Shown: one piece after another, positions 3,043 to 64,000 of the stretch | Layout: every line of letters begins with the position of its first letter | Numbering within the stretch: position 1 is the first letter of the stretch | Assembly (NCBI RefSeq): GCF_003628535.1 | Contig: NZ_RBCI01000002.1 | Location: 372,001 to 436,000, forward strand | Reading direction: 5' to 3' | DNA: 64,000 nt | Origin: Flavisolibacter nicotianae | GTDB taxonomy: Bacteria > Bacteroidota > Bacteroidia > Chitinophagales > Chitinophagaceae | Notes under the pieces: model-generated | Databases searched by the model: none | Told to the model about the DNA's origin: nothing | What the model saw: only the letters and a program-made list of their open reading frames with translations | Program-made: the position numbers and the translations under genes

Positions 3043-3105
3043 GTCAAAAGTAAAAAGGCAAAAGAGGAAGGAAGCGTTTTTGAATTTTGCCTTTTCCCTT
3101 TTGAC
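3043..3105. repeat. Intercistronic inverted repeat between paaB and paaC (locus A1)
   Basis: The arms 3043-3063 and 3085-3105 are reverse complements at 19 of 21 positions, starting with GTCAAAAG and ending with CTTTTGAC. The arms are A/G-rich word strings with a 21-base loop containing CGTTTTTGAA. The element sits inside a same-strand operon, so it is not a simple operon terminator. It shares the CGTTT-TTGAATTTTG core with loci at 3496, 18517 and 63939. Confidence 0.75.
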
Positions 3106-3112
3106 TGGTTCG

Positions 3113-3475
3113 TTACATGTGATTTACTTCATCCGGAAGGTCGTAAAAGGTAGGATGGCGATAGACCTTGTCTTCGGCCGGTTCGTAAAAGCTTTCCGCT
3201 TCATCGGGGTTGGAGGCATGAATGTATTTGCTTTCCACCACCCAGATGCTCACGCCTTCCATGCGTCTTGTATAGACGTCCCGTGCATTTTCGACGGCCA
3301 TCTGCGCATCGGCTGCATGCAAAGAGCCGACGTGCTTGTGATCGAGACCTTGTTTGCTGCGGATAAACACTTCCCAAAGCGGCCATTCGTTTGCGGCTGC
3401 TTTTCCCGTGTCGCCGCCTGTTGGCGCTTCTTTGTCACCGTAATCGCCGTAGTAATATTTCCTGAAATAGTTCAT
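3113..3475 (-). CDS. paaB: Phenylacetyl-CoA epoxidase subunit PaaB
   Basis: PaaB is the small subunit that bridges PaaAC heterodimers in the phenylacetyl-CoA epoxidase. The 120-residue protein has the family core EWPLWEVFIRSKQGLDHKHVGSLHA followed by DAQMAVENARDVYTRR and GVSIWVVES. The N-terminal 30 residues (YYYGDYGDKEAPTGGD) are a charged, Gly-rich extension. Length is slightly above the typical 95-residue proteobacterial form. It lies between paaA and paaC on the same strand, separated from each by about 87 bases, and both gaps hold related repeat sequence. Confidence 0.93.
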   Translation of the reverse strand: MNYFRKYYYGDYGDKEAPTGGDTGKAAANEWPLWEVFIRSKQGLDHKHVGSLHAADAQMAVENARDVYTRRMEGVSIWVVESKYIHASNPDEAESFYEPAEDKVYRHPTFYDLPDEVNHM

Positions 3476-3495
3476 TGCTGATTTTATTGAAGTCG

Positions 3496-3556
3496 AAATT
3501 CAAATGTGAAAGTCAAAACAGTGGACGTTTCTTTTGAATTTTGCTTTTTTACTTTT
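3496..3556. repeat. Repeat element between paaA and paaB (locus A2)
   Basis: This gap carries GTCAAAAC, then ACGTTTCTTTTGAATTTTGC, the same word order as loci A1 (3043), A3 (18517) and A5 (63939). Only short arms pair here (AATTCAAA near 3498 with TTTGAATT near 3533), so it looks like a degraded member of the family. It sits within the paa operon. Confidence 0.55.
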
Positions 3557-3562
3557 AATAGA

Positions 3563-4510
3563 CTACGCTGCCTGTTGCTTGTTTCTTGCAGCCCTCTTCT
3601 CCGCATGTGCTTTCGCGGCTTCCCGCACCCAGGCACCATCGTCCCAGGCCTTTTTCCGGGCATCGAGCCGTTGCTTGTTGCAAGGGCCGTTGCCGCTGAC
3701 CACGTTCCAGAATTCTTCCCAGTTGATCTTTCCAAAATCGTAGTGACTGCGCTCCTCGTTCCATTTCAGATCGGGATCGGGCAGAGTCATGCCCAGCAAT
3801 TTTACCTGCTCGGCGATCATGTCCACGAAACGCTGGCGCAGTTCGTCGTTGCTAAATCGCTTGATCTTCCATTTCATGCTTTGTTCGCTGTGCAGACTTT
3901 CGCTGTCGTGCGGACCAAACATCATGAGGCTGGGCCACCACCAGCGGTCGATGGCGTCCTGCACCATGGCCCGTTGTTCCGGCGTTCCCCTGCTCAGCAC
4001 CAGCAAGGATTCGAATCCCTGGCGCTGGTGAAAGCTTTCTTCTTTGCACACCCGGATCATGGCGCGGCTGTAAGGTCCATACGAAGTCCGGCACAGCGGC
4101 ACCTGGTTCATGATGGCGGCACCATCCACCAGCCAGCCAATGGCGCCCATGTCGGCCCAGGTAAGCGTGGGATAATTAAAGATGGAAGAATATTTGGCCT
4201 TGCCGCTGTGTAACTGCCCGATCATTTCGTCGCGGCTGATGCCCAGCGTTTCGGCAGCGCTGTAGAGATAAAGACCGTGGCCGGCTTCGTCCTGCACCTT
4301 CGCAATGAGAATTTGTTTGCGTTTGAGGGAAGGCGCACGGCTGATCCAGTTGCCTTCGGGCAGCATGCCAACGATCTCGCTGTGCGCATGCTGCGAGATC
4401 TGGCGGATCAGGGTTTGCCGGTATTTCTCCGGCATCCAGTCTTTGGGTTCAATGCGCACATCGGCGTCGATCTTTTCCTGGAAGTGGGATTCGAAATTCT
4501 GTACAGGCAT
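3563..4510 (-). CDS. paaA: Phenylacetyl-CoA 1,2-epoxidase catalytic subunit PaaA
   Basis: PaaA carries the diiron centre that inserts oxygen into the ring of phenylacetyl-CoA, the step that commits phenylacetate to the aerobic-hybrid pathway. The 315-residue protein has the ferritin-like iron ligand motifs DEAGH (in [20 protein letters not shown]) and EESFH (in [15 protein letters not shown]). It matches the family through the C-terminal [15 protein letters not shown]. The start is taken at the ATG giving [14 protein letters not shown], because the 15 residues upstream in the longest frame show no family similarity. It is the first gene of the paaABC-glycosylase operon and is divergent from the small membrane protein at 4714. 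The rest of the pathway (paaG, paaZ, paaK) is not in this window. Confidence 0.95.
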
Positions 4511-4713
4511 AATGCAATCGTTCTCTGCAAATTTAATGCAACAGCAGGCAGCCACATGTTAATTGATGGTAAGTTTTGATGCCGGTTAGATTGCTGTTCA
4601 GGGGTTGGCTGCGAGTTGCCTTTTGACCGGAATAAAACGGCTGCGAACGCTCCAAATCAGTTTTGCCGCTTCCCGAAGATCTTCGTAATTTTTACCAACT
4701 AAAACCATCTAAC

Positions 4714-5235
4714 ATGAACTTTCAAACAATGAGCAAACAGCGAAAAATGATTCTGATAGCAGCGGCTGTCGGAGTGATTGCCATGTTCTTACCCTGGTGG
4801 TCCATTTCTCTGGGCATTTTTGGAGGCGGAAGCGTAAACGGCATGCACGGTGAGGGCCTTCTTGTTTTTCTCTGTTTTTTGGCAGCCGGCGCATTCGCTT
4901 ACATCGGTGATCAGACAAAAAACCTGGATCGCACCAACTGGATGCTGGCATTGATTGCCGGCGGTATTGCTTCGCTTGTGATGATCATCCGGTTTCTGAG
5001 CTGGCTTGATATTCTGAGCGCACTTAGCTTTGGTTTTTACCTTGCCATGGCTGCTTCATTTGCCATTGTTGCATTTGCCTATACACACCGTGCAGCAGGC
5101 GAAACCCTGCAAGGCGGGTTCGATACATTGAAGAACAAGTTTACCAATCAGCCTTCGTCCACACCAAGCGATGCCACACCAACCACCAAAGTGATCAACC
5201 CCACCAGCAGCGATCCATCAAAGCCGGTTGTTTGA
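4714..5235 (+). CDS. Hypothetical four-helix membrane protein
   Basis: I do not recognise a named family. The 173-residue product has four hydrophobic segments (about 12-30, 47-65, 76-95 and 100-122). A hydrophilic Ser/Thr/Pro-rich tail of about 45 residues (TNQPSSTPSDATPTTK) follows. The start is put at the ATG giving MNFQTMSKQRKM because it follows an A-rich leader (ACTAAAACCATCTAAC), while the upstream ATG would add a charged stretch before the first helix. It sits alone between paaA and paaE on the opposite strand and splits the paa genes. A rho-independent terminator follows at 5297. Confidence 0.7.
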   Translation: MNFQTMSKQRKMILIAAAVGVIAMFLPWWSISLGIFGGGSVNGMHGEGLLVFLCFLAAGAFAYIGDQTKNLDRTNWMLALIAGGIASLVMIIRFLSWLDILSALSFGFYLAMAASFAIVAFAYTHRAAGETLQGGFDTLKNKFTNQPSSTPSDATPTTKVINPTSSDPSKPVV

Positions 5236-5296
5236 TTTTTTAAACCGGATTTGTGGGGTGGGATGAGATGCGCGGGATCACCTTTACCCAATATGC

Positions 5297-5332
5297 AACG
5301 AGGCGCTCTTTCACAGAACGCCTCGTTATTTA
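5297..5332 (+). terminator. Rho-independent terminator after the 4714 membrane gene
   Basis: The 9-base arms AACGAGGCG (5297-5305) and CGCCTCGTT (5319-5327) pair perfectly around a 13-base loop and are followed by ATTTATT. The T tract is short but the stem is strong. Confidence 0.8.
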
Positions 5333-5342
5333 TTGGCCCTAT

Positions 5343-5392
5343 TATCAAATATCTTTTAATATCTAATATCTTACTATCCCAATATCTCCCTA
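5343..5392. repeat. Tandem AATATCT-word tract
   Basis: The word AATATCT, or a one-base variant, occurs about five times in 50 bases between the terminator and the paaE stop. It resembles one arm of the word-built inverted repeats seen elsewhere, but no matching opposite arm is visible nearby. Confidence 0.5.
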
Positions 5393-5393
5393 G

Positions 5394-6473
5394 CTACTTC
5401 GTATCAAAATCAATTACCACTTTTTCCGTTTGCGGATGCGACTGGCAGGTGAGTATGTAGCCCTTTTCCACTTCATCGGGTTCGAGGCCCCAGTTCACAT
5501 CCATCGACACGTTGCCTTCCACTAGTTTGGCCTTGCAGGTGGTGCATACGCCGCCTTTACAGGCGTAGGGCAGGTCGGCGCCGTGTTTCAGGGCGGCATC
5601 CAGGATGCTTTCGCTTTCATAGGCCAGGTCGAAATCGAACCAGATTCCGTCAACCTTGATGTTGATGGCGGCTTTAGGACCTTCGTCCGAAACGGTGCCC
5701 GGTTGCTGGCTGCTTGTTACCTGTTTTTGGCCTGGAACGGTAAAGAGTTCGAAATGGATTTTTTCTGCCGCAACGCCCCTGCCGGCCAGGTAGCCCTGGA
5801 TGCAGAAGATCATCTCCTCGGGTCCGCAGAGGAAAAATGCATCGCTGTTTTCCAGGTCAATGACCTTATCGAAAAGAAGCGCCAGTTTCTCCGTGTCGAT
5901 GCGGCCGGAATTGATTGGCACATCGGTTTTTTCGCGGCTCAGGATATGGTAAACCCGGAAGCGATCAATGAATTTGTCTTTCAGCGCCTCCAGTTCTTCT
6001 TTGAAAATGATGGAAGCCTTTGTTCGATTGCCGTACACCAGCGTAAAGCTGCTTTGCGGTTCCGTGAGCAGGGAGGTTTTGATGATCGAAAGAATGGGAG
6101 TGATGCCGCTGCCGGCAGCGAAGGCAACGTAGGCCTTCTTTTGTGCGGCATCGAGCGCTGTATAAAATTTCCCCGTGGGCGGCAACACCTCCAGTTGGTC
6201 GCCGGCTTTTAATTCTTCGTTGGCCCAGGTGGAGAACAGGCCGCCTTCCACTTTCTTTACCGCCACCTTCAGCCTGTTGTCGAAAGGGCTGGTGCAGATC
6301 GAATAGTTGCGGCGTAATTCCTGCCCGTTCAGTGTTTTCCGGATGGTGAGATTTTGACCCTGCACGAATTGAAACGTGTCTTTCAACCCGGCCGGTACAG
6401 CAAATTCGATGGAGACGCAATCGTCTGTTTCGCGTTCAACTTTTTTAACAGCTAAAGAATGAAAATGGATCAT
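5394..6473 (-). CDS. paaE: Phenylacetyl-CoA epoxidase reductase PaaE
   Basis: PaaE passes electrons from NADPH through FAD and a [2Fe-2S] cluster to the PaaA diiron centre. The 359-residue protein has the class IA-type order: FAD-binding domain with RRNYSICTSP, nucleotide-binding domain with GSGITPILSI and FFLCGPEEMI, then a C-terminal plant-type ferredoxin domain. The cluster cysteines are near residues 305, 310, 313 and 343 (ACKGGVCTTCKAKL and ILTCQSHP). The start is taken at the ATG giving MIHFHSLAVKKVERET; the 23 residues before it in the longest frame do not look like protein. It is separated from paaA by an opposite-strand membrane gene, so it must have its own promoter. Confidence 0.93.
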   Translation of the reverse strand: MIHFHSLAVKKVERETDDCVSIEFAVPAGLKDTFQFVQGQNLTIRKTLNGQELRRNYSICTSPFDNRLKVAVKKVEGGLFSTWANEELKAGDQLEVLPPTGKFYTALDAAQKKAYVAFAAGSGITPILSIIKTSLLTEPQSSFTLVYGNRTKASIIFKEELEALKDKFIDRFRVYHILSREKTDVPINSGRIDTEKLALLFDKVIDLENSDAFFLCGPEEMIFCIQGYLAGRGVAAEKIHFELFTVPGQKQVTSSQQPGTVSDEGPKAAINIKVDGIWFDFDLAYESESILDAALKHGADLPYACKGGVCTTCKAKLVEGNVSMDVNWGLEPDEVEKGYILTCQSHPQTEKVVIDFDTK

Positions 6474-7704: not shown

Positions 7705-7750
7705 ACCAGGATGCCTGTGAAATAAATACGCTAGAATAAACTCTCGTGCA

Positions 7751-10678: not shown

Positions 10679-11698
10679 ATGAAAGTTGCAGTAGTTGGCG
10701 CCACCGGTCTTGTCGGTACAAAAATGTTGCAGGTTCTGGCAGAGCGCAATTTCCCCGTAGACGAATTGATTCCCGTGGCCTCCGAACGTTCGGTAGGAAA
10801 AGAAGTTGAATTCAAGGGAAAGAAATACAAAGTGGTAAGCATGCAGGACGGCATCGACGCCAAACCTGCCGTGGCGATTTTCTCTGCCGGCGGAAGCACG
10901 TCGCTGGAATGGGCGCCCAAATTTGCCGAAGCCGGCATTACCGTGATCGACAATTCCTCTGCCTGGCGGATGGATCCCACAAAACCCCTGGTCGTTCCGG
11001 AAGTCAATGCCACGGTACTGACGGCGAAAGACAAGATCATCGCCAACCCCAACTGCTCGACCATCCAGATGGTGGTGGCGCTGCAGCCGCTGCACAAAAA
11101 ATACCGGATCAAGCGGGTGGTTGTTTCCACTTATCAAAGCGTGACCGGTACCGGTAAAAAAGCCGTTGACCAGTTGTACAACGAACGCGATGGAAAAGAA
11201 GGCGAGATGGCCTACAAATATCCCATCGATCTGAACGTGATCCCGCAGATCGACGTTTTCCTCGACAATGGCTACACGAAAGAAGAGATGAAGATGGTGA
11301 ACGAGACAAAGAAAATCATGGGCGACGACAGCATCCGCGTTACGGCAACGACGGTACGGATCCCCGTGGTGGGTGGACACAGCGAAAGCGTCAACATCGA
11401 ATTTGAAAATGATTTCGACCTGGACGAAGTAAAGCGCCTCCTGGCTGAAGCGCCGGGTGTTATCGTACAGGACGATCCGTCGCAGCAGCTTTACCCCATG
11501 CCCCTGTGGGCCCATGAAAAAGACGAAGTGTTTGTCGGCAGGCTTCGCCGCGACGAAACGCAGCCCAACACACTGAACATGTGGATCGTCAGCGACAACC
11601 TTCGCAAAGGCGCCGCTACCAACGCTGTGCAGATTGCCGAGTATTTAATGGAAAAAGGAATTCTGCAGAAAGAAGCGCAGTTGAGCAAGGCGCTGTAA
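10679..11698 (+). CDS. asd: Aspartate-semialdehyde dehydrogenase
   Basis: This enzyme reduces aspartyl phosphate to aspartate semialdehyde, the branch point to lysine/diaminopimelate, threonine and methionine. The 339-residue protein has the N-terminal nucleotide motif VAVVGATGLVGTKML, the active-site cysteine segment IIANPNCSTIQM (Cys at about residue 126), and the substrate-binding RIPVVGGHSESVNIEF. Length is normal. The ATG follows an A-rich leader (AAACAAACAAAAC). The gene stands alone, divergent from the lamin-tail gene, and converges on an SDR gene, with an inverted repeat between the stops. Confidence 0.96.
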   Translation: MKVAVVGATGLVGTKMLQVLAERNFPVDELIPVASERSVGKEVEFKGKKYKVVSMQDGIDAKPAVAIFSAGGSTSLEWAPKFAEAGITVIDNSSAWRMDPTKPLVVPEVNATVLTAKDKIIANPNCSTIQMVVALQPLHKKYRIKRVVVSTYQSVTGTGKKAVDQLYNERDGKEGEMAYKYPIDLNVIPQIDVFLDNGYTKEEMKMVNETKKIMGDDSIRVTATTVRIPVVGGHSESVNIEFENDFDLDEVKRLLAEAPGVIVQDDPSQQLYPMPLWAHEKDEVFVGRLRRDETQPNTLNMWIVSDNLRKGAATNAVQIAEYLMEKGILQKEAQLSKAL

Positions 11699-11703
11699 GC
11701 AAA

Positions 11704-11790
11704 GTGAAACGTCAAACCTGAGTCGTGAAACCGAAGAGGATCGAGATAAAGTCCACTCCGGTTTCACGTTTGACGTCTCACGTTTGACGT
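11704..11790. repeat. Word-built inverted repeat between asd and SDR stops (locus B1)
   Basis: The left arm (11704-11732, GTGAAACGTCAAAC...GTGAAACCG) and right arm (11758-11790, CCGGTTTCACGTTTGACG...) are reverse complements once a single 7-base unit missing from the left arm is allowed for. The right arm is made of repeated ACGTTTGACGT/CTCACGT words. It covers the last codons and stop of the SDR gene. It probably acts as a two-way terminator structure. Confidence 0.75.
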
Positions 11791-12623
11791 TCTTCATACA
11801 CCGTGCTCACCGCAATGGCCTCGTTGGCTTTCAGGTCGGCTTCTACTTGTGCGATCTTCATGCGGATGGCCTGAACAGGTGCTTTGCCCAGGGGCAGCCG
11901 AAGTGCTTTGTGATCGCCATACACGTAGTCCACGATTGCCTGCGCCGCTTTCACCGGATCGCCTTCCTGTTTGCCGTTGTTGCTCTCCACATACTGGTAC
12001 ATGCCGCCAACCGGCGTGCTTTGATATGCTTCTATTTTTTGCTGTGCGGCTTTCATGGAACCGGCCAGGAACTCGGTGCGGAAAGGCCCGGGTTCTACAA
12101 TGGTAACCTTTATGCCAAACGGTGCAACCTCCTGCGCAAGCGCTTCACTAAAACCTTCCAGCGCAAATTTGCTGGCGTTGTACACGCCAAAACCGGCCGC
12201 TGCACGAAAACCGGCCTGCGAAGAAATCTGCACGATATGCCCGCTGCCTTGCTGGCGAAGGATAGGTAAGAATTGTTTTGTCACCGCGATGGCGCCAAAA
12301 AAGTTAGTTTCCATCTGTGCCCTGATTTCTTCGAGAGAAAATTCTTCAATGGCGCCGATGGTGCCGTAGCCGGCGTTGTTCACCACAACATCGATGTGGC
12401 CGAACTTCGCCAATGCGCTTTGAATACCACTTTTGATTTGTTCTTCATTTGTCACGTCCAGAAGAATGCCCAATCCGTTATCGCTGGTTTGTTGCGTGAA
12501 CGCACTGGCCTGTTCGGGCTTGCGAAAGGTGGCGGCTACTTTATCGCCTTTGCGGAGGACAGCCTGTACCAATTCTCTTCCAAAGCCGCTGGAAGCACCG
12601 GTGATAAACCATGTCTTTGCCAT
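11778..12623 (-). CDS. Short-chain dehydrogenase/reductase (SDR) oxidoreductase
   Basis: The 281-residue protein is a classical SDR using NAD(P)H. It shows the nucleotide motif TGASSGFGRELV near residue 8, NNAGYGTIGA near 85, and the catalytic Ser/Tyr/Lys set in VQISSQAGFRAAAGFGVYNASKFALEG (Tyr and Lys about residues 153 and 157). The start is set at the ATG giving MAKTWFITGASSG. The substrate is unknown; close relatives are annotated only as SDR oxidoreductases. The final residues ERQT and the stop codon are encoded within the inverted repeat shared with asd, so the C-terminus may have been reset by that repeat. Confidence 0.88.
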   Translation of the reverse strand: MAKTWFITGASSGFGRELVQAVLRKGDKVAATFRKPEQASAFTQQTSDNGLGILLDVTNEEQIKSGIQSALAKFGHIDVVVNNAGYGTIGAIEEFSLEEIRAQMETNFFGAIAVTKQFLPILRQQGSGHIVQISSQAGFRAAAGFGVYNASKFALEGFSEALAQEVAPFGIKVTIVEPGPFRTEFLAGSMKAAQQKIEAYQSTPVGGMYQYVESNNGKQEGDPVKAAQAIVDYVYGDHKALRLPLGKAPVQAIRMKIAQVEADLKANEAIAVSTVYEERQT

Positions 12624-13064: not shown

Positions 13065-14984
13065 ATGAATTTCGAGTATTTATTCCTCCATTACTGGTGG
13101 GTAGCCGCCATTTTACTTGTTCTGATTTGCTACAAACTCTTCTTTCGCCTCTTTGGCGTCATCATCGTGCCCGAAGACAAGATTGGATTGGTCACTAAAA
13201 AATTTGTTCTTTTTGGCGAGAACAGAGAACTTCCGGAAGGCCGCATCATTGCGGTAAACGGTGAAGCCGGCTACCAGGCCCAAACCCTGCCGCCGGGTAT
13301 TTATTTCTGGTACTGGATCTGGCAGTACGAAATCACGCTGCAGCCTTTTACCGTCATCCCCGAAGGAAAGATTGGCCTGATCATGGCCAAGGATGGTAAC
13401 GAGCTGGAAACAGGCCGCATCCTGGCCCGCCGCGTGGCTTGTGATGCATACCAGGACGCCGAAGCCTTTATTAAAAACGGCGGACGGAAAGGCCGGCAGA
13501 CAGCGTTCATTACGGCCGGTACCTATCGTATCAATACCTTCCTGTTTGATGTGATCGTGACGGATCTGACCAAGATCGAAGACAACATGGTCGGTATCGT
13601 GACCACGTTGGATGGTTTGCCGATTGAAGAAGGCAATATTGCCGGTAAATACATTTCGTCGCACAACAACTTCCAGGACGCCGATACCTTCCTCGACAAC
13701 AACGGTAACAAGGGATTGCAACCACAGGTGATCCTGGCCGGTTCCTATTATCTCAATCCCTGGTTTACCAAAGTGGAGATGATTAAAATGACAGAGATCC
13801 CGATTGGCTATGTGGGTGTGGTGATCTCTTACATTGGCGACGAGGGAAAAGATTTGAGCGGTGAAGAGTTTCGTCATGGCAACATTGTCAGCAAGGGACA
13901 AAAAGGGGTGTGGGCCGAACCGCTGGGACCCGGTAAATATCCCATCAACTGTTACATTATGCGGGTAGAGTTGGTGCCAACCACGAACCTGGTGCTGAAC
14001 TGGGCTTCGGCACGTACCGAAGCACACCAGCTGGACAAGCATCTCTCCACCATCACCGTTCGTTCAAAAGACGGGTTCCCTTTCAATCTCGACGTGTCGC
14101 AAATTATTCACATCCCCACCACGGAAGCGCCGAAAGTGATTGCCCGTTTTGGTAACATGATGAATCTTGTGGGACAGGTGCTGGAACCAACCATCGGTAA
14201 CTACTTCCGCAACTCCGCACAGGATTCGGATGTGATCGACTTCCTGAAAAGCCGCAAGGAAAGACAGGAATCGGCAAGGGAGCATATCAGTCGTGTGCTG
14301 CAGCAATACAATGTGTATGGCGTGGACACGCTGATCGGCGACATCGTTCCACCGGAAAGCCTGATGCGAACCTTAACAGAACGGAAACTGGCCGAAGAGC
14401 AAAAGGTAACTTATGAAACGCAGATGAAGGCGCAGGAAACAAGGCAGGCACTGGAAAAGGAAACCGCCATCGCCGAAATACAAAAAGACATTGTAAAAGC
14501 CGACCAGGGGGTGCTGATTGCCCAGCGCATTGCCGATGCATCGGTAAAGAAAGCCGAAGGGGAAGCCTCCAGCGTAAAGATTGCGGCGAGCGCCGATGCC
14601 GAACGGACCAGGTTGAATGCCGGTGCGGAAGCAGAACGGACAAGATTGTTGTCAACAGCCGAAGCGCAAAAAGTAAAAGCGCTGGCCAGTGCGGAAGCCG
14701 AGCGCATTTCTCTTACCGGTACGGCCGAAGCCGAGAAAATTCTGGCAATTGGTAAGTCAACCGCCGAAAGTTACAAGCTGGCTGTCGAGAGTATGGGTGG
14801 AGACAACTTCACGCAGTTGAAGGTTGTGGAGTCCATTGCCAAAGACAAGGTGAAGATCATTCCCGATGTGTTGATTGCCGGAAACGAAGGTGGTACCAAT
14901 GGCACCATCAGCGGTTTGCTTGGCTTGAAACTGATGGAAGACTTATCGAAGAAGAACGGAAAGAATGGCAGGCAATTGGATTAG
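13065..14984 (+). CDS. Flotillin-like SPFH/band 7 membrane protein
   Basis: The 639-residue protein has one N-terminal membrane segment (about residues 10-32) and a central SPFH domain (about 290-450). A long Ala/Glu/Lys-rich coiled coil (about 450-600) follows, with repeated AEAERTRL and TAEAEKI units typical of flotillins. The C-terminus NEGGTNGTISGLLGLKLMEDL is conserved in bacterial forms and helps oligomerisation. Residues 40-280 hold several beta-rich repeats (EDKIGLVTKKF, EGKIGLIMAKDG, EDNMVGIVTTLDG, PIGYVGVVISYIG), an extended N-terminal part seen in long SPFH proteins. It probably scaffolds membrane microdomains. The gene is preceded by an A-rich leader and stands alone, converging on DUF2461. 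Confidence 0.88.
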   Translation: MNFEYLFLHYWWVAAILLVLICYKLFFRLFGVIIVPEDKIGLVTKKFVLFGENRELPEGRIIAVNGEAGYQAQTLPPGIYFWYWIWQYEITLQPFTVIPEGKIGLIMAKDGNELETGRILARRVACDAYQDAEAFIKNGGRKGRQTAFITAGTYRINTFLFDVIVTDLTKIEDNMVGIVTTLDGLPIEEGNIAGKYISSHNNFQDADTFLDNNGNKGLQPQVILAGSYYLNPWFTKVEMIKMTEIPIGYVGVVISYIGDEGKDLSGEEFRHGNIVSKGQKGVWAEPLGPGKYPINCYIMRVELVPTTNLVLNWASARTEAHQLDKHLSTITVRSKDGFPFNLDVSQIIHIPTTEAPKVIARFGNMMNLVGQVLEPTIGNYFRNSAQDSDVIDFLKSRKERQESAREHISRVLQQYNVYGVDTLIGDIVPPESLMRTLTERKLAEEQKVTYETQMKAQETRQALEKETAIAEIQKDIVKADQGVLIAQRIADASVKKAEGEASSVKIAASADAERTRLNAGAEAERTRLLSTAEAQKVKALASAEAERISLTGTAEAEKILAIGKSTAESYKLAVESMGGDNFTQLKVVESIAKDKVKIIPDVLIAGNEGGTNGTISGLLGLKLMEDLSKKNGKNGRQLD

Positions 14985-15133
14985 TAAGTTGTAAGTAGGA
15001 AGTAGCAAGTAGCAAGTAGCTCCTTTGCTCGTTCAATCATTGTAAAACAAAACCTCTTCATCTATCGAAGAGGTTTTGTTTTGTCCGCCTGTTTGCAATA
15101 AATGGCTGCTCGCTACTTCCTACTTACAACTCG
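14982..15133. repeat. Nested inverted repeat between flotillin and DUF2461 genes (locus C)
   Basis: The left arm (about 14985-15020) is built from the word AAGTAGC repeated several times. Its reverse complement occupies about 15107-15133, with roughly 25 of 27 bases matching. Inside the loop lies a separate perfect 16-base terminator stem. The outer arms begin almost at the flotillin stop and end 5 bases from the DUF2461 stop. Confidence 0.8.
15044..15082. terminator. Bidirectional terminator inside locus C
   Basis: AAAACAAAACCTCTTC (15044-15059) pairs perfectly with GAAGAGGTTTTGTTTT (15067-15082) over a 7-base loop. The arm ends are A- and T-rich, so it can end transcription from both convergent genes. 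Confidence 0.85.
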
Positions 15134-22744: not shown

Positions 22745-22749
22745 TTAGC

Positions 22750-22895
22750 TGAGACGGCAAACGGGAGACGTGAAACAGGAAAAACATGCGACAACAAGCT
22801 CTCCGAAGGATAGCTTTTGCCCAGGTACTCTTAGGCAAACGTGTCAACACGTAAACCTGTGAACTGTTTTTGTTTCATGTTTGCGGTCACTTGCC
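22750..22895. repeat. Inverted repeat between GGT and DUF1345 stops (locus B2)
   Basis: The left arm (about 22754-22785, GGCAAACGGGAGACGTGAAAC...) and right arm (about 22865-22892, TGTTTTTGTTTCATGTTTGCGG) are reverse complements if one 8-base unit is skipped in the right arm. The words GTGAAAC and GCAAAC are shared with locus B1. The right arm covers the DUF1345 stop codon. Confidence 0.6.
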
Positions 22896-23573
22896 AATTA
22901 GCCCTGAAACGATGTTGATGATCAGCGCAATGATGGTGGTATTGTAAACAAACGAAAGCAAGCCATGCGCCAGGGCCAGCCGGCGGATAGGCCGCCTGGT
23001 AATATTGACATCGGCCGTTTGAAAGGTCATGGCGAGAATAAAAGAAAAATAGGCGAAGTCTAAAAAGTCCGGCTGTTCGTTACCCGGGAACTGCAGGCCG
23101 CCTGCATAACCAAATTCTCCTTCTTCCGCTTTTTGCGGTTTGTCGTAAAAAAGGTGCGCATAGCGAATGGTAAATACCGAGTGGATGAGGAGCCACGAAA
23201 GAGTGATGGCGACGAGCGATAAAACGATGTGCAGGCTTAAGCCAATTTTGTTCCCTGTCGGTTGGTCCTTGAGTAAAAGGATGACGGCAAAAAGAGAGAT
23301 AAACGCCGCGCCAACGACAATCAGGAAAACTACCAGCCAACTGGCGTCTTGCTCCTGGGCAATCTTCGCTGTCTTTTTCGGATGTTGAAGAAGGATGGTG
23401 ACCCACGAGAAGAAAAGTGAGGTGGCGGCGAAACAGATCCAGCCATACAAAAACGCAGTGCCGTTTGCCTGCGATTTTTCTACAAGAAAGAAAACAAGCA
23501 CGCCCATGGCCAGCGATATGAGCAAGCGATAGGTCCGGTCCAGTTTGTCAACAGTGAGTAAAAATGTTTTCAT
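22887..23573 (-). CDS. DUF1345 membrane protein
   Basis: The 228-residue protein has five to six hydrophobic segments, with the DUF1345 pattern FLYGWICFAATSLFFSWVTI, LSWLLIHSVFTIRYAHLFY near residue 130, and DFLDFAYFSFILAMTFQTADVNIT near 170. The family is widespread and its role is not known. It is monocistronic, converging on the gamma-glutamyltransferase gene. Confidence 0.86.
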   Translation of the reverse strand: MKTFLLTVDKLDRTYRLLISLAMGVLVFFLVEKSQANGTAFLYGWICFAATSLFFSWVTILLQHPKKTAKIAQEQDASWLVVFLIVVGAAFISLFAVILLLKDQPTGNKIGLSLHIVLSLVAITLSWLLIHSVFTIRYAHLFYDKPQKAEEGEFGYAGGLQFPGNEQPDFLDFAYFSFILAMTFQTADVNITRRPIRRLALAHGLLSFVYNTTIIALIINIVSGLIGK

Positions 23574-34210: not shown

Positions 34211-34684
34211 ATGAGCGGAGTACATTACGTAACGAAGGACACGTTGGAGCAGATGAAAGCCGACCTGCAGCGCATGAAGGCCGTTGACCGTCCCGCGGCG
34301 GCAAGAGCCATTGCCGAAGCCAGGGAAAAAGGCGATCTCCGCGAGAATGCCGAGTACGATGCCGCCAAAGAAGCGCAAGGCTTACTGGAAGCCAAGATCG
34401 CGGCCATGGAAGGGCAGATTGCACAAACCCGCATCCTCGATGAAGCCAATGTGGACACGAGCAAAGTGTCGATCCTGACCCGGGTGAAACTGACCAACCT
34501 GAACACGAAAAAACAGGTAACCTACCAAATCGTCAGTGAAACGGAAGCCGACCTGAAGGCCGGTAAAATTTCCGTGACTTCCCCCATCGGCAAGGGCTTG
34601 CTGGGTAAAACCGTTGGCGAAGTAGCAGAAGTGTCTGTGCCGGCTGGTGTAATGAAGTTTAAGGTTGAGGATATTACTGTGTAA
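34211..34684 (+). CDS. greA: Transcription elongation factor GreA
   Basis: GreA enters the RNA polymerase secondary channel and triggers cleavage of backtracked transcripts. The 157-residue protein has the N-terminal coiled coil (YVTKDTLEQMKADLQRMKAV, then REKGDLRENAEYDAAKEAQG) with the acidic tip DLRENAEYDAA. The C-terminal FKBP-like domain follows (SPIGKGLLGKTVGEVAEVSVPAG). Length is standard. The leader contains a strong terminator hairpin downstream of a TAnnTTTG box, which suggests control by premature termination. Confidence 0.96.
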   Translation: MSGVHYVTKDTLEQMKADLQRMKAVDRPAAARAIAEAREKGDLRENAEYDAAKEAQGLLEAKIAAMEGQIAQTRILDEANVDTSKVSILTRVKLTNLNTKKQVTYQIVSETEADLKAGKISVTSPIGKGLLGKTVGEVAEVSVPAGVMKFKVEDITV

Positions 34685-34687
34685 GGC

Positions 34688-34904
34688 GATAATGGGATAA
34701 TTCGATAATGTGCAAATGTGCAAATGTGCAAATGAGTTGGTATTTGCACGAGTGATTTCAACCGGTTCTTTGCAGGAAGATGATTTTTTGGAGATCAGCA
34801 ACCCCTCTCAATTGGGCTTCCGTTGCGTCGCACTCTTCAGCGTCCGGTAAATCTCCCGCACAAAAACACATCCCATTATCCCATTATCGAATTATCCCAT
34901 TATC
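34688..34904. repeat. 217-base element with 23-base perfect inverted ends (locus D)
   Basis: 34688-34710 and 34882-34904 are exact 23-base reverse complements built from the word GATAATGG. The left arm is extended inward by three copies of TGCAAATG. The 170-base core carries a 37-codon frame on the minus strand at 34758. It resembles a miniature transposon in layout but has no target-site duplication I can see. Confidence 0.75.
34758..34871 (-). CDS. Possible 37-residue cysteine-containing micro-ORF
   Basis: The frame reads MCFCAGDLPDAEECDATEAQ, then LRGVADLQKIIFLQRTG, and stops. It lies wholly inside the loop of locus D. It has three cysteines, no signal peptide and no recognised motif, and there is no ribosome site. 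It may be chance, but it is an unusually protein-like frame. Confidence 0.25.
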   Translation of the reverse strand: MCFCAGDLPDAEECDATEAQLRGVADLQKIIFLQRTG

Positions 34905-34933
34905 CCATTTGCTAATTTTCACATTTCCCTCCC

Positions 34934-43003: not shown

Positions 43004-43037
43004 TGATTCTTTTGTTGAAGGGAGCAAAGTAAGGAAA

Positions 43038-43151
43038 GTTTGGAGTTTGGGGTCTGGAGTTTATCGTTGGTTGAGAATTTTTAAGTTTTCTCATTTGATG
43101 CTTACTGCGATCACAGAGCCTGGTGCGCCTGAAAAACCCCAAACTCCAAAC
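43038..43151. repeat. Inverted repeat between ftsX and DUF3098 genes (locus L)
   Basis: GTTTGGAGTTTGGGGT (43038-43053) and its exact reverse complement (43136-43151) face each other across 82 bases. The outer flanks hold further related words (CTGGAGTTT, GTCTGGCG). A small hairpin TGAGAA/TTCTCA lies in the loop. The element sits within a same-strand operon. Confidence 0.75.
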
Positions 43152-43166
43152 GCCAGACGCCTAACC

Positions 43167-47207: not shown

Positions 47208-47237
47208 TGCAGTTGTTTTTATGCTGATGCTTATGTA

Positions 47238-47325
47238 AGACGTGAAAAGTGAAACGGGAGACCGCAGTGAACGTCAATCGAAAAGCCTCTATAGTTTGAC
47301 GTTTGACGTTTCTCGTTTCACTACA
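47238..47325. repeat. Word-built inverted repeat before the EEP gene (locus B4)
   Basis: GTGAAACGGGAGAC...GAACGTCAATC (left) and GTTTGACGTTTGACGTTTCTCGTTTCAC (right) are imperfect reverse complements. The right arm repeats the word GTTTGAC. It uses the same words as loci B1 and B2 and lies between leuS and the EEP gene. Confidence 0.7.
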
Positions 47326-57873: not shown

Positions 57874-57884
57874 TGATTGGCTGT

Positions 57885-60042: not shown

Positions 60043-60046
60043 GCAA

Positions 60047-60658
60047 TTACTCTTTGGTCCAGGTTTGCAATGTAGGGAAAACACTGAATTGCAAAAGACC
60101 CTCGCCTTTTGCATAATACAATTTGTAGATCCCCGGGGGCTTGCCAATGGTTGTATCACACAATACTTCTACAACATTCGCATAGGTTCGACTGCCAATT
60201 GCAAAGGAGGGGAGCAACCGGCTTGCGGTATTCCCGTTCAACGAAGCACTGGCCAGGCCATTCGCTTGCAGGTTATAAAGTGACAGCGTCGCGTTGTTCA
60301 ACCGGAAGGAAATGGAACGAATATGACCCGTCGTGCTGAAACGGATCGAACCTTTCGGCCGTTTCAGCGTGTCGAGCTCGCGGGTCTCGAACACCTTGTT
60401 TGCTTCACAGGAAGGCGAAGGGCCAAACGCGCCGCCCCTTGCCTGGTAGGGCGCTGTCTCCTCAATGTTGTTCAACGTGAATGTATCTGCCTGGTTAGTG
60501 GTACGAAATATCAATTGCTGATTGTGGCGGTATGGAAACCAGCTGTCGAGTGTATCGTCTTTGTAGCCGGGACAGTCAATTCGTTTGCTGCAATCTCCGC
60601 ACGACAAAAACAAAACTGTGCAGCAAACAACAAGCAGGCCGGTTGCAAATGTTTTCAT
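60047..60658 (-). CDS. Hypothetical lipoprotein of the Lgt/radical SAM cluster
   Basis: The 203-residue protein begins MKTFATGLLVVCCTVLFLSC, with the lipobox LSCGDC; the lipid-carrying cysteine is residue 20. The mature part has paired cysteines (CSKRIDCPGY) and a beta-rich fold (RYNQQLIFRTTNQADTFTL-type repeats, LPSFAIGSRTYANVVEV), but no named family. It is the first gene of the cluster, and its stop is 5 bases from the Lgt-like start, so a substrate or partner role for the Lgt-like enzyme is a reasonable guess. Confidence 0.72.
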   Translation of the reverse strand: MKTFATGLLVVCCTVLFLSCGDCSKRIDCPGYKDDTLDSWFPYRHNQQLIFRTTNQADTFTLNNIEETAPYQARGGAFGPSPSCEANKVFETRELDTLKRPKGSIRFSTTGHIRSISFRLNNATLSLYNLQANGLASASLNGNTASRLLPSFAIGSRTYANVVEVLCDTTIGKPPGIYKLYYAKGEGLLQFSVFPTLQTWTKE

Positions 60659-60963
60659 GACCGGTAATTTATTACTTATCCGTCAGAAGAAAGAAGCTTG
60701 CAAAAACTTACGTCACGATTTTTAGGTTGAACATTGGCGTTCCAACCGCTTGCATAATGCTACCAAAAGTGGCACATAGGCTTCCACCACCCGTGATTTT
60801 TCAATGCCACCGCGATCAGGAAAGCTGTCGGCGTCCCGGTTCAAATTACCTGGCAGAAAATGCGTCGCTTTATTCTTTGTATCCTGGCTGTTGCTGCAAA
60901 ATGAGCAGGACGTGGTTGCTTTTGTTCGGCAGCGTTGTTTTGGATGTCAAATGATTTCAACTG
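60659..60963. other. 305-base gap without a gene
   Basis: I see no convincing coding frame or RNA gene. It must contain the promoter of the lipoprotein/Lgt-like/radical SAM operon near 60660-60740. A 75-codon plus-strand frame here is rich in Cys and Pro and has no features of a protein. Confidence 0.5.
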
Positions 60964-61611
60964 TTAAGACTTCAGCAGTTTGAACGCATGTGTCCACCGG
61001 TTATACAAAAAGCCGGGAATGCACCACAGGATGCACAAGGGCTCAATGGCTCGTGCCGCTTCGGCCTTGCCCATGTCTTCGGTATCCCAGCCGAATGCTG
61101 TCAGGATTTCGGTGACCGTTTTCCTGGCGCCATCGTCGTTGCCGCAAATAAACATCGTGGGCCTGCCTTCGGTGTACTGCGGTTTGTACATCTGCGCATT
61201 GCCAACGCTGTTGAAGGCTTTTACCAGGTGTGCGTCGGGTAAAAGCGCTTGCAGTTTTTCCATAAGCGAAGTATGGCCGTCGGTAAAAAAGGAGAGCACC
61301 CCGTTGACGGGCGGCTCCTTGGCAATGGGATTGGTGACATCAATGACCGTTTTACCCCTGAAGTTTTCAAGGCCGCTTTCCTGTACGGCCTGTTCGGCCG
61401 CAATACCTGCAACAGCCAGCACCAGCAGGTCACCGAAAGCAGCCGCTTCGGCAAACAAACCGGCCTTGCCTGACGGATTTTTTTTCGCCCATTTCACCAC
61501 GTCCTCTTTCTGTGGATCCCTTGTGCCGATCATTACCTGGTGGCCTTCGGTTAAAAAGGCGGTGGCCAGTACCCGGCCCACGATTCCCGACCCGATAATC
61601 CCGATTTTCAT
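60964..61611 (-). CDS. F420-dependent NADP reductase-like oxidoreductase
   Basis: The 215-residue protein has a Rossmann NADP site MKIGIIGSGIVGRVLATAF with the NADP-type R in GTRDPQKEDVV, and VIDVTNPIAKEPPVNGVL near residue 98. The later VKAFNSVGNAQMYKP and MFICGNDDGARKTVTEIL are typical of the F420:NADP oxidoreductase-like (YCSI) family. Bacteroidetes generally lack F420, so the cofactor partner may be different. It is monocistronic and divergent from ruvB. Confidence 0.85.
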   Translation of the reverse strand: MKIGIIGSGIVGRVLATAFLTEGHQVMIGTRDPQKEDVVKWAKKNPSGKAGLFAEAAAFGDLLVLAVAGIAAEQAVQESGLENFRGKTVIDVTNPIAKEPPVNGVLSFFTDGHTSLMEKLQALLPDAHLVKAFNSVGNAQMYKPQYTEGRPTMFICGNDDGARKTVTEILTAFGWDTEDMGKAEAARAIEPLCILWCIPGFLYNRWTHAFKLLKS

Positions 61612-61680
61612 ATGCGTGTTTTAGGCCGAAATTACGCTTTGATTTAAGCATTCCTTGGCGAAAATCGTTGCTAAATTCCT

Positions 61681-61688
61681 TAGCTTTA
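61681..61688 (+). promoter_or_regulatory. ruvB promoter candidate
   Basis: TAGCTTTA (one base off TAnnTTTG), with a TTG at 61655-61657, 23 bases upstream. The predicted start site falls before the inverted repeat at 61702 and 85-90 bases before the ruvB ATG. Confidence 0.4.
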
Positions 61689-61701
61689 CGTCCATAAAAT
61701 C

Positions 61702-61773
61702 AGCTTCAGGTTGCAGGCTTTTCGCGGCAGGCATGTGAAATATCCTGTAGCTTGCGGCTCGCAGCTTGAAGCT
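61702..61773. repeat. Inverted repeat in the ruvB leader (locus F)
   Basis: AGCTTCAGGTTGCAGG (61702-61717) and CTCGCAGCTTGAAGCT (61758-61773) are imperfect reverse complements. The right side repeats GCTTG/GCAG words. It lies in the leader just before the ruvB ATG. Confidence 0.5.
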
Positions 61774-61782
61774 TTCCCTACT

Positions 61783-62826
61783 ATGGCAAATCCTAATTTA
61801 ACGTCCGGAAAAGAAGGACTCTCGGCAACGGAAAAAGAATTCGAAAACGGTATCCGGCCGCAGCAGATCGAAGAGTTCTCCGGTCAGCCGCAGATTATTG
61901 AAAACCTCCGCATCTTCATCAAAGCGGCCAAGATCCGCGGTGAGGCGCTGGACCATGTGTTGTTTCATGGTCCTCCGGGTCTGGGTAAAACCACCTTGTC
62001 ACGCATTGTCGCAAACGAGATGGGCGTCAGCATCAAAGAAACCTCCGGGCCGGTGATCGAAAAACCCGGCGACCTGGCCGGTTTGCTTACAGGCCTTCAG
62101 CCCAATGATGTGTTGTTTATCGATGAAATCCACCGCCTGAGCACCGTGGTGGAAGAATACCTGTATTCGGCCATGGAAGATTACAAGATCGACATCATGA
62201 TCGACAGCGGTCCCAATGCCCGCAGCATCCAGATCAACCTCTCGCCGTTTACGCTGATTGGTGCCACCACGCGGAGCGGTTTGCTCACGGCCCCGCTGCT
62301 TTCGCGGTTTGCCATCAAGTCGCGACTGGAATACTATGATGCCGAAACGCTGAAAAAGATCATCCTGCGTTCGGCAAGCATTTTAAATGCCGACATCTCT
62401 ACCGAAGCGGCCGGCGAAATTGCCCGTCGCAGCCGCGGCACGCCGCGTATCGCCAATGGCCTGCTGCGCCGCGTACGCGATTTTGCCCAGGTGCTGAACG
62501 ACAGCACCATCGACCTTGGCATTACACAACACGGGTTGCGAGCCCTGAACGTGGATGAACACGGCCTGGATGAAATGGACAACCGTATCCTGGCGGCTAT
62601 CATCGAAAAGTTCAAGGGAGGGCCGGTGGGCATCACCACCATCGCCACGGCCGTAGGCGAAGAAGCGGGAACACTGGAAGAAGTGTACGAGCCGTTTTTG
62701 ATCCAGGAAGGGTTCATTATGCGTACGCCGAGAGGCAGGGAGGTGACGGCAAAAGCGTATGCGCATCTGGGTAAAACGCCGCCGTTGCGTGGCGCATCCG
62801 GCAACTTGTTTGGTGGTTTAGCCTGA
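61783..62826 (+). CDS. ruvB: Holliday junction branch-migration helicase RuvB
   Basis: RuvB is the hexameric AAA+ motor that moves Holliday junctions with RuvA. The 347-residue protein has Walker [14 protein letters not shown] near residue 63, Walker [11 protein letters not shown] near 110, [21 protein letters not shown] (sensor), [22 protein letters not shown], and the winged-helix end [22 protein letters not shown]. The start is set at [10 protein letters not shown]. It is a single gene. Confidence 0.97.
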
Positions 62827-62850
62827 GCGTGAAGGCAAAGTAAAAAAATA

Positions 62851-62882
62851 AAAAAAGTGTCCTGAACGTAAGACACCTTTTG
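62851..62882 (+). terminator. Rho-independent terminator of ruvB
   Basis: AAAAAGTGTC (up to 62861) pairs with GACACCTTTT (62872-62881) over a 10-base loop. Just after it comes TTTTGAATTTTGAC, the word set of the A-type repeats, reaching the stop of the acetyltransferase gene. Confidence 0.75.
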
Positions 62883-62908
62883 AATTTTGACCCTTTATTT
62901 TTGACTCA

Positions 62909-63337
62909 TCAAAGTTCCTTTTCCATCACAAAGTGCGGGATGGTGATTTCCTGGAACTCGTCGCCTTTGCGTTTGTAGCCCATCTTTTCGTAAAACCCCG
63001 AAGCGTCTTTGCGGGCATGCATCGTAATTTTTTTGTAGCCCCTGTCCCTGGCCAGGTTTTCGGCAAACTGCATCAGGGCACGGCCGATGCCTTTTCCCTG
63101 TACGTCATTGACCACGGCCATCTGGCGAAGGCGTACGGTTTCGGGATCTTCCTCCACCAGCATGCAGCAACCCAACATCCGGTCTTCTTCGTAAGCTGCC
63201 ATGTGCATGTTTTGCTTTTCCTTTTCCAGTTCGTCTTTTGAAAAATGAAGTCCCAGCGGTTTGCGCAAAATCTCGTCACGCAACTTCAGCATCTGCTTGT
63301 ATTCCTCCGTGCCGTAATCGATAATTTTTAATGCCAT
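62909..63337 (-). CDS. GNAT-family N-acetyltransferase
   Basis: The 142-residue protein has the acetyl-CoA-binding core with QMAVVNDVQGKGIGRALMQFAE near residue 72 (the RxxGxG/A-like loop reads GKGIGRA) and the later YKKITMHARKDASGFYEKMGYK. The family members are mostly known as small-molecule or protein acetyltransferases. The length is normal. It is convergent with ruvB. Confidence 0.9.
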   Translation of the reverse strand: MALKIIDYGTEEYKQMLKLRDEILRKPLGLHFSKDELEKEKQNMHMAAYEEDRMLGCCMLVEEDPETVRLRQMAVVNDVQGKGIGRALMQFAENLARDRGYKKITMHARKDASGFYEKMGYKRKGDEFQEITIPHFVMEKEL

Positions 63338-63565
63338 GTATGAGCGGGTTGACGTTGTGCAATACTACAAATATCCGTTTACTCGGCCAATTCACTGCCG
63401 GTCGCCGGCATTTTTTGCAGAAAAGGAAGAAGGCAGAACGCGGCAATGTTTGGTGCAAGGGCCATTGGATAAAAGAGCGGGCGGCGAAGATGGTTTTGCC
63501 GCCGGCCTTCAAGGAAGGAAGCCTGCAGCATCGCCAACTGTTTTACAGATGTTTTTGATCGGCAG

Positions 63566-63594
63566 TTGTTTTTTTCCAAAAACCTATATTTTTG
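63566..63594 (+). promoter_or_regulatory. acpP promoter
   Basis: TTG at 63566-63568 and TATTTTTG at 63587-63594 (exact TAnnTTTG) are 18 bases apart, the expected spacing. The transcript would start near 63601, about 20 bases before the acpP ATG. This is the clearest promoter in the window. Confidence 0.75.
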
Positions 63595-63620
63595 CACCAC
63601 TATAACCAAATTTTTACAAT

Positions 63621-63857
63621 ATGTCAGACATTGCAGCAAGAGTAAAAAAAATCATCGTAGATAAGCTGGGCGTTGATGAAGCAGAAGTTACGAATGAAGC
63701 TTCTTTTACCAACGATTTGGGTGCCGACTCGCTGGATACAGTTGAATTGATCATGGAATTCGAAAAAGAATTCAATATTTCAATCCCCGACGAGCAAGCC
63801 GAAACCATTACCACTGTTGGTCAAGCTGTTTCTTACCTTGAAGAACACGCAAAGTAA
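63621..63857 (+). CDS. acpP: Acyl carrier protein
   Basis: AcpP carries growing acyl chains in fatty acid synthesis on a phosphopantetheine arm attached to Ser37 in [16 protein letters not shown]. The 78-residue acidic protein has the usual four-helix layout and normal length. A good promoter precedes it and a terminator follows. fabF usually follows acpP in related genomes, but a terminator and repeat come first here, so the operon link, if any, lies outside the window. Confidence 0.97.
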
Positions 63858-63890
63858 TTGCCGTTCTACTATAGAACTTCATACCAATTC

Positions 63891-63926
63891 CGCCTTCATG
63901 TTCCCGTAACAGAAGGCGGTTTTATC
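63891..63926 (+). terminator. Rho-independent terminator of acpP
   Basis: CCGCCTTC (63891-63898) pairs with GAAGGCGG (63913-63920) and is followed by TTTTATCTTT. Confidence 0.88.
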
Positions 63927-63938
63927 TTTACAGGGAAG

Positions 63939-64000
63939 TCAAAACTCAAAAGAGAAAAGTCTTAAAACAGGCGTTTCGTTCGAAATATCTTTTGAATTTT
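63939..64000. repeat. Word-type inverted repeat at the right edge (locus A5, partial)
   Basis: GTCAAAACTCAAAAG (63939-63953) faces CTTTTGAATTTT at the end of the window (11 of 12 bases pair), with GGCGTTTCG in the loop. It matches the GTCAAAA...CGTTT...TTTTGAATTTTG order of loci A1-A3. The far arm continues past the edge. Confidence 0.65.

Follow-up and report, generated by a model that had tools for sequence, protein, structure and literature searches.

The 64,000-nucleotide stretch of the Flavisolibacter nicotianae genome analysed here (the window; G000:C2:372001-436000, where G000 denotes this 6.09-Mb draft genome) carries, at seven loci, inverted repeats (IRs) whose arms are built of tandem words, i.e., units of 7 or 8 nt. 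We propose that these word-built IRs are quite probably the termini of small selfish elements that form one superfamily and that we call IVP elements after the PF05635/TIGR02436 ‘S23’ protein (IVP), and that the IRs of the window are derivatives that lack the open reading frame (ORF). A complete element would consist of a 5′ arm of about 4.5 words, a gene for a four-helix-bundle IVP of ~120 amino acids, and an inverted arm, ~0.4-0.5 kb altogether; the window copies would be non-autonomous, with only arm, loop and arm. In support of this, we show the architecture of arms and gene with its statistics, the co-variation of word and protein, the dispersal of one ORF-less family, and the presence or absence of whole elements in cyanobacterial plasmids.

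The gaps named in an initial annotation of the window were inspected base by base and then searched for IRs, and the best IR of each site was compared with 40 dinucleotide shuffles. At six loci, no shuffle reached the score of the IR (3043-3105, 11708-11791, 14987-15131, 34688-34904, 43038-43151 and 63941-64000). The seventh, at 47248-47322, was matched by one shuffle in 40 and is not strong by this test alone, yet it belongs to a dispersed family (see below). The annotation was thus right that the repeats are real and that the word differs by locus; its estimate of about ten gaps comes down to these seven, as three weaker candidates did not rise above chance (3476-3562, 22745-22900 and 62827-62912, equalled by six, three and four of the 40 shuffles, respectively). 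All window elements sit between ORFs and contain none themselves; their loops measure 18-155 nt, and the words are often A/T-rich.

Two large IR ‘loops’ contained a frame for the four-helix-bundle protein known from the intervening sequences (IVSs) of 23S rRNA. PF05635 has 17 matches in the F. nicotianae genome (none in the window among the 14 matches listed) and is found in 17 of 18 genomes of the genus, with 0-18 matches per genome (the one without being G002), but in none of 14 control genomes. Across Bacteroidota, it occurs in 90 of 118 genomes, 87 of them over the cut-off. Some of the matches contain internal stop codons. Copies from F. nicotianae also match TIGR02436 (E 5e-24 and 2e-23), and one matched PDB 2gsc, Xanthomonas campestris XCC0516, which has five chains. 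In a paper on the Coxiella IVS, this X. campestris homologue is given as a toroidal homopentamer, and S23p as a protein with ‘no known function’ (PMC4990558). Three polar residues, Q41, E55 and E78, are invariant in nine divergent IVP sequences; in a set of 50 sequences, whose numbering is shifted by +2 residues at the start relative to the nine, Q43, S50, N54, E57 and E80 are conserved at 92-98%. A search of phage records with one query gave no IVP match. As a side observation, the IVP genes of Picosynechococcus (L339), Anabaena 90 (L341) and Pseudanabaena (L346) are located within CRISPR operons, where their neighbours are either cas10 and a cmr3-family gene or cas6 and cas4.

The genes are associated with the repeats. 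When the left flank of each gene was scored against the reverse complement of its right flank, 40 of 53 IVP genes of the genus were flanked by word-built IRs (score at least 28), a score also reached by 7 of 221 control genes, likewise short (Fisher 1.8e-29). The 53 are not a random draw: they comprise the 30 best-scoring loci and others picked by genome (F. nicotianae, G005 and G017), after a contig-end palindrome (L249) and a contig-edge case (L253) had been dropped from 55, and five IVP homologues were likewise removed from 226 controls. Two of the seven control hits (G008 slice 37697 and 64702) are Y1 transposase genes (C11:327791 and C11:354652) with palindromes of their own. The IVP arms have a median of 4.57 words (n 85), and their 5′ arms hold more G than C in 38 cases and more C than G in five. 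Many of the word families found in gaps recur here, with the same polarity as in gaps.

Words and proteins vary together. Arm similarity rises with IVP identity (Mantel r 0.259, with 0 of 2000 permutations reaching it; 43 elements passing the filter), such that the 20 pairs sharing at least 60% IVP identity have a mean word similarity of 0.67, compared with 0.25 below 60%. Word length, 7 or 8, changes six times on the IVP tree, against a shuffled mean of 11.4 and with none of 500 shuffles as low (42 elements passing the filter). Two pairs, L250/L279 and L271/L281, keep their words despite saturated synonymous sites (proportion of synonymous differences, pS, 0.84 and 0.86). IVP itself is under purifying selection, with a ratio of nonsynonymous to synonymous rates (dN/dS) of 0.09-0.18 in 5 of 11 pairs, those where dS could be estimated. 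Words thus look constrained together with the protein, though inheritance as a unit contributes. The same correspondence extends to arrays that carry no gene: 46 of 102 intergenic arrays of F. nicotianae match an IVP arm of the same genome at 0.6 or more, whereas permuting the letters within words gave a mean of 3.1 and a maximum of 10 in 30 rounds, and 41 of the matching arrays are oriented as in the IVP elements and five the opposite way.

The element at 47235..47321 of the window shows that an ORF-less form can be dispersed as a whole. It is ~87-90 bp long, with four 7-nt words of CGTGAAA type per arm and a partly conserved centre, and it has both arms and loop in common with another locus of the same genome. 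A genome search with it at E <= 0.01 returned 12 matches in F. nicotianae and 18 in G005, although many of these cover no more than an arm. We aligned 20 copies that cover most of the element (seven from F. nicotianae, 12 from G005 and one from G015): they have sharp ends on both sides, unrelated flanks, about four 7-nt words per arm and a partly conserved centre, and in 12 of the 20, by an uncontrolled count, one end lies no more than 6 nt from where an open frame of 300 nt or longer stops. In the window copy, the right array resembles an IVP arm of the same genome (0.54), and the RNA fold has a z of -3.4. Shared loops are otherwise few; comparison of 89 gaps gave 12 weak or partial pairs between own loci, of which one is a whole element and several belong to a different dispersed repeat. 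Most ORF-less copies therefore have diverged centres. For the 34681 element, no full-length homologue was found in the F. nicotianae genome, only pieces of arm and loop.

Beyond the genus, the best IVP match of each of 30 other Bacteroidota genomes was examined, a set that is by construction not a random draw; 18 score at least 28, and 17 of these exceed their own 30 shuffles. On plasmids, the first five IVPs (from Nostoc, Calothrix and Riemerella) all have clear word-built IRs, the left arm on pNsp_b lying 219 nt away, and of nine further ones five are strong (Anabaena 90, Geminocystis, Pseudanabaena, Azospirillum and Gemmatirosa), the other four being marginal.

In Nostoc and Calothrix plasmids, IVP elements appear as insertions of 0.4-0.6 kb at gene junctions that are empty in relatives. 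Thus, a plasmid of Nostoc ATCC 53789 has a 506-bp IVP insert where genes 2 and 3 overlap in GAGGTAATGGGA on two Nostoc C052 plasmids. One junction upstream, at TTCTAGATTATG, a different IVP element is found on another ATCC 53789 plasmid, one of C052 and one of N6 (417 bp, and 599 bp in N6). In N. edaphicum, a 494-bp element separates nrdB from nrdA, and Calothrix NIES-4105 lacks it (flanks 85% identical). Likewise, Calothrix NIES-22 carries an IVP element at the stop codon of an integrase gene, which N. carneum, Tolypothrix and Aulosira do not. Such presence/absence pairs are the direct evidence that the arms are gained or lost jointly with IVP, by movement or loss of the whole unit.

How common the arrays are, and how they are built and placed, was measured in 864 kb of the F. 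nicotianae genome (the window plus 800 kb), where a crude gene caller left 577 gaps of at least 40 bp. Tandem arrays occur 60 times at period 7 and 30 times at period 8, with at most four at any other period from 5 to 12, while shuffled gaps gave none at periods 7 and 8. At a lower threshold, period-7/8 arrays are present in 102 gaps against three shuffled ones. A score of at least 36 against the own reverse complement was reached by 101 gaps and six shuffled gaps, a count that mixes ordinary terminators with word-built IRs. Copy number is not free, as it would be in a simple sequence repeat: 116 of 187 arrays have 4.0 to 5.5 words, gap arrays having ~4.5-4.7, so that four to five words per arm is modal and a minority are long. 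Identical cyclic 7-nt words recur across the genus (243 pairs, against 15 after letter shuffling).

Slippage does act on some copies. An array of GTTTGGA in F. nicotianae exceeds 15 copies; long arrays of this word lie at G000:C1:993541, C12:23799, C13:327427, C13:703310 and C64:123, and those at C1:993541 and C13:327427 share a similar following flank (81% over 75 bp), the repeat itself seeming truly slippage-expanded. Array density also varies widely, from 4-13 per 100 kb in stretches of F. nicotianae to 57 in Niastella caeni (L125) and 85 in a 20-kb sample of another genome (L087, G016:C1:4820001-4840000).

The word-built IRs have a direction. Among 49 of them from F. nicotianae and related genomes, same-family pairs agree in polarity 70 times and oppose twice, and the 5′ arms contain 457 G and 145 C, i.e., the G-rich arm is 5′ and the C-rich arm 3′. 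Ordinary IRs, taken from array-free gaps of the same genomes, have left arms with 530 G and 534 C and hence no polarity. This difference upholds the earlier statement that ordinary terminators do not explain the repeats. Furthermore, an intrinsic terminator is a compact GC-rich hairpin followed by a T run, whereas the window IRs have loops of 18-155 nt and words that are often A/T-rich; a terminator-like hairpin is nevertheless enclosed by some word-built IRs. We also considered interpreting the polarity as a ‘telomere fusion’, but dropped this because we found no evidence for it.

Placement follows a pattern as well. In 1082 gaps, G-type arrays start a median of 5 nt past the upstream stop codon where the gap is of the ++ or +- type, while start codons lie at median distances of 23-56 nt. 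Of 180 convergent gaps 40 contain arrays, and of 232 divergent ones 22. Where a single array had been detected (106 cases), its own gap supplied an inverted match to it 53 times, another gap five times and shuffles twice. Arms pair better with their own partner than with an arm of the same family from elsewhere (0.63 versus 0.55, p 0.007, 42 IRs), but because this advantage is modest, arm pairing is not under tight constraint.

The gap behind ftsX illustrates how words are exchanged at a fixed position. An IR above all 50 shuffles stands there in 11 of the 17 genus genomes that have the whole ftsX locus. The words are GTTTGGN in F. nicotianae and G015, and elsewhere GTTTGTN, GTTTATT, GATGACA, GTGAGTG, GCTAATTA, GAATATC, GTTCGAG and more, so that the prediction of different words at the same locus holds among these sister species. 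By eye, a TAnnTTTG-like sequence often lies a few nt past the 3′ arm; this we take to be the -7 element of Bacteroidetes, in which case the IR would fill the space from the stop codon to the next promoter. In 80 named FtsX loci (1.37 Mb), an array or strong IR follows ftsX in 20, mostly of Chitinophagaceae, with varying words and some single arrays; one of the 20, L153, duplicates G011, being 100% identical to the genus locus L065 over 3876 bp. Arrays occur somewhere in 41 of the 80 loci, and the 39 without include many from Chitinophaga. Here too, periods 7 and 8 (107 and 31 arrays) stand out from six other periods (average 8.3). Between G008 and G010, 87 orthologous gaps comprise 14 with arrays in both, eight in one and 65 in neither (p 1.2e-9), and among the 14 shared gaps nine have the same family, three differ and two are intermediate. 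Within Niastella, N. caeni has four array-bearing gaps whose counterparts in N. vici and N. soli lack arrays and are, for the most part, shorter.

With this background, the individual loci of the window can be compared with the IVP elements of the same genome. The closest agreement is at 43037..43161, directly behind the ftsX stop codon, where arms of GTTTGGN words resemble those of the IVP elements G000:C2:652872 (0.88) and G000:C1:763840 (0.82). The IR at 11701..11791, whose words belong to the CGTGAAA/CGTCAAA family and whose best arms span 11708-11731 and 11768-11791, starts no more than 10 nt past the stop of the gene ending at 11698, and its right array (11761) matches an arm of G000:C1:846289 at 0.69. 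At 34682..34926, the words are the 8-nt GATAATNN and GCAAATNN; the 5′ array (34682-34734) overlaps the stop codon of the upstream gene, and this and the 3′ array (34870-34926) match the arms of G000:C1:858830 at 0.67 and 0.60. The IR of GTCAAAA-type words at 63936..64000 is cut by the window edge. Two loci are without an identified parent, since their best match to an own IVP arm is only 0.40 and 0.46, respectively: that at 3038..3105, with 7-nt TCAAAAG/GGCAAAA words (arms 3043-3063 and 3085-3105, loop 21 nt), and that at 14984..15131, with AGTAGCA words, whose nearest IVP arm is that of G000:C1:754432 (GAGTAGC words). The arms of the latter (14987-15013 and 15105-15131) are 93% complementary and surround an ordinary terminator-like hairpin, a perfect 16-bp IR at 15044..15082. 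A separate dispersed repeat of ~60-80 bp, ACGTACAAGTGTGCGACGCAACG-like, was noted at 34795-34850 of the window, in the same genome near 475957 on C13 and 505929 on C2, and also in gaps of relatives.

Several observations weigh against the proposal that the repeats are ends of IVP elements. At a score of at least 28, arms are missing from 13 of the 53 genus IVPs and from 12 of the 30 taken from the wider phylum. Conversely, 56 of the 102 intergenic arrays, the loci at 3038 and 14984 included, have no own IVP arm match of 0.6 or more (14 of the 17 own IVP matches examined). The clustering of word length on the IVP tree is partly shared descent. Polarity has exceptions: the 54 gaps with at least two arrays show G then C 38 times, C then G five times and other orders 11 times, and some gaps combine arms from two families, contrary to what would be expected of a simple element with two ends. 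As for mobility, target duplications are short and inconsistent, being 3 to 5 nt at some Nostoc sites and of no consistent form in the 20 dispersed copies; the pNsp_c insert carries 41 nt past its right arm; and the ends of the Calothrix NIES-22 element are ambiguous, giving 463 or 426 bp depending on the alignment. Empty sites come from cyanobacterial plasmids only, with the ancestral state deduced from the empty relatives, and no mobility was observed in the window's own genome. Finally, the family searches run on IVP recognised no nuclease, recombinase or reverse transcriptase motif.

Could the repeats have arisen without any element? The initial annotation had offered, besides a family of mini-elements, local slippage combined with palindrome formation; the two together, the latter by template switching, would make the words and their mirror images. 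We favoured this at first, and there is something to be said for it: among long simple repeats, heptamers rank first in the majority of the bacterial genomes surveyed, and polymerase contact has been put forward as an idea for the 7 nt (Mrazek 2007, as cited in PMC4679880), some arrays are perfect and long, and at one G008 locus both arms share, by eye, variants that are missing in G010. It was dropped after a whole-element copy with a shared loop and the link to IVP had come to light, and we now regard it as very unlikely, given that word families recur across the genus, that four to five words per arm is modal, that whole elements are dispersed with their loops, and that words track the IVP phylogeny. 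The mini-element half of that interpretation has fared better: the arms are built like the ends of IVP elements, often from the same words, 20 sharp-ended copies lie in unrelated contexts, and IVP elements are present or absent in cyanobacterial plasmids. The two parts that are supported, then, are mini-elements and the exclusion of ordinary terminators, while the slippage origin is not supported.

A different possibility is that IVP is a regulator, of the host or selfish, that binds word arrays at mRNA ends or in a regulon, the IRs being selected binding sites or terminators and mobility secondary or absent. The enrichment of arrays behind stop codons and in convergent gaps, their scarcity in divergent ones, their conserved presence in the orthologous gaps of G008 and G010 and the RNA fold of one element would all suit such a role. 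Against it, words are swapped at a conserved position behind ftsX, a genus genome has anywhere from no IVP match to 18 with many different words, and clean insertions are seen; we consider it unlikely. The hairpins might instead be moved in trans by a Y1 (IS200/RAYT-type) transposase, as for repetitive extragenic palindromes (REPs), with IVP as a passenger. Fourteen of the 18 genus genomes contain Y1, including 12 of the 13 good ones, and the IVP-free G002 is also without Y1. However, of five Y1 matches examined, four have GC-rich palindromes of their own on both sides, which are not word-built, and the fifth, a weak partial match, has none; IVP is under purifying selection and varies with the words; and G012-G014, although incomplete, have IVP and no Y1 match. 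This makes a Y1-driven origin quite unlikely. The RAYT-like genes with GC-rich REP-like palindromes (G008:C11:327791 and 354652, G010:C56:49454 and own C2:517702) constitute a second palindrome system. Last, the repeats could be retro-elements that use a reverse transcriptase in trans, with IVP acting like Avd of diversity-generating retroelements. One of the two IVPs scanned did match the Avd model weakly (E 5e-4, far below the cut-off), but RVT_1 has no match in 12 of the 18 genus genomes, among them that of F. nicotianae, a draft of estimated completeness 100% with 17 IVP matches, and we hold this explanation to be extremely improbable.

Returning to the IVP elements, we infer that each IVP would recognise its own word and act in trans on ORF-less copies, and that words might be swapped when a locus loses one element and receives another, permissive sites being those immediately after a stop codon. 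More speculatively, each protomer of the IVP pentamer could bind one word of the G-word strand, in the form of single-stranded RNA or DNA. Such a ring would explain the period of 7-8 nt, the approximately five word starts per arm, the polarity and the tolerance of variable spacer letters. Extending this, we tentatively suggest, as a possibility that we would rate below even, that ‘word-reading rings’ form a superfamily present in four phyla or more, in which every subunit of a pentameric four-helix protein reads a single word of 7 or 8 nt, clades have drifted to their own matched words, insertion occurs behind stop codons and ORF-less copies have been seeded in some genomes. The rRNA IVSs, the cyanobacterial STRRs and the Xanthomonas heptamers may then be parts of one system, and its members, with insertions of 417-506 bp and one gene of ~120 amino acids, would be among the smallest protein-coding mobile elements.

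The findings give a concrete identity to intergenic word repeats of several phyla, so far read as slippage products or G-quadruplexes, and may join three old puzzles, namely the heptamer repeats, the rRNA inserts and the abundant S23/IVP protein that has no known job. The origin of the 23S rRNA IVS becomes testable, in that binding of the own word is expected of every IVP. Should the ring model prove true, small proteins would have a further, novel means of reading nucleic acid, and its code could be learned from a natural series of dozens of protein-word pairs. In the open-licence part of PubMed Central, searched by titles and the starts of abstracts, no link of word-built IRs outside rRNA to S23/IVP was found.

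Known systems share some of these features. Miniature inverted-repeat transposable elements (MITEs) are short dispersed elements with terminal IRs and no ORF, and the 20 aligned copies of the 47235 element have both terminal IRs and ORF-less dispersal; unlike MITEs, the arms here are tandem words, and the likely parent, the IVP element, encodes no known transposase. REPs and REPINs with their RAYTs are short intergenic palindromes without tandem words, whose cognate HUH transposase gene is flanked by the same ends. IVP elements resemble them in being short, intergenic and palindromic with a cognate protein gene between the same ends, and differ in the tandem words and the four-helix protein; the palindromes that flank Y1 genes here are not word-built. 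Cyanobacterial STRR heptamers are likewise 7-nt intergenic tandem words. So are the TAACTGA repeats of cyanobacteria and some Bacteroidetes, which are described almost only as direct repeats (PMC4679880).

Closer in their statistics are the heptamers of Xanthomonas and Nostoc, read as G-quadruplexes with the protein left out. They most often have four units, occur as convergent inverted pairs in two Xanthomonas genomes (70 in one and 75 in the other), lie near or overlap stop codons and are under-represented between divergent ORFs (PMC4692102). The terms S23, four helix and xcc0516 do not appear in its main text, though X. campestris encodes the IVP of PDB 2gsc. Unlike those heptamers, most words here are without G tracts, for example GATAATNN, GTTCACNN and GTCAAAA, where a G-quadruplex would have them in each unit.

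The nearest relative is the 23S rRNA IVS. That of Coxiella has an S23p ORF, a 28-bp terminal stem and tandem GACAGAT heptamers before the start codon, and is called a selfish element of unclear origin (PMC4990558). The IVSs of Coxiella, Leptospira and others share with IVP elements a terminal IR stem, heptamers that start with G in the 5′ region and the S23p ORF in the loop. In our material, the terminal IRs form one stem in the RNA fold of one element, and the long forms have the IVP gene between the arms, as counted above for the genus, the window copies being ORF-less. The elements described here differ from the IVSs in that they are free-standing between protein genes, with no rRNA host gene, and in the many families, words and ORF-less derivatives within one genome. 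We therefore read the loci of the window as ORF-less relatives of IVS-type IVP elements, a free-standing variant with a cognate word-protein system.

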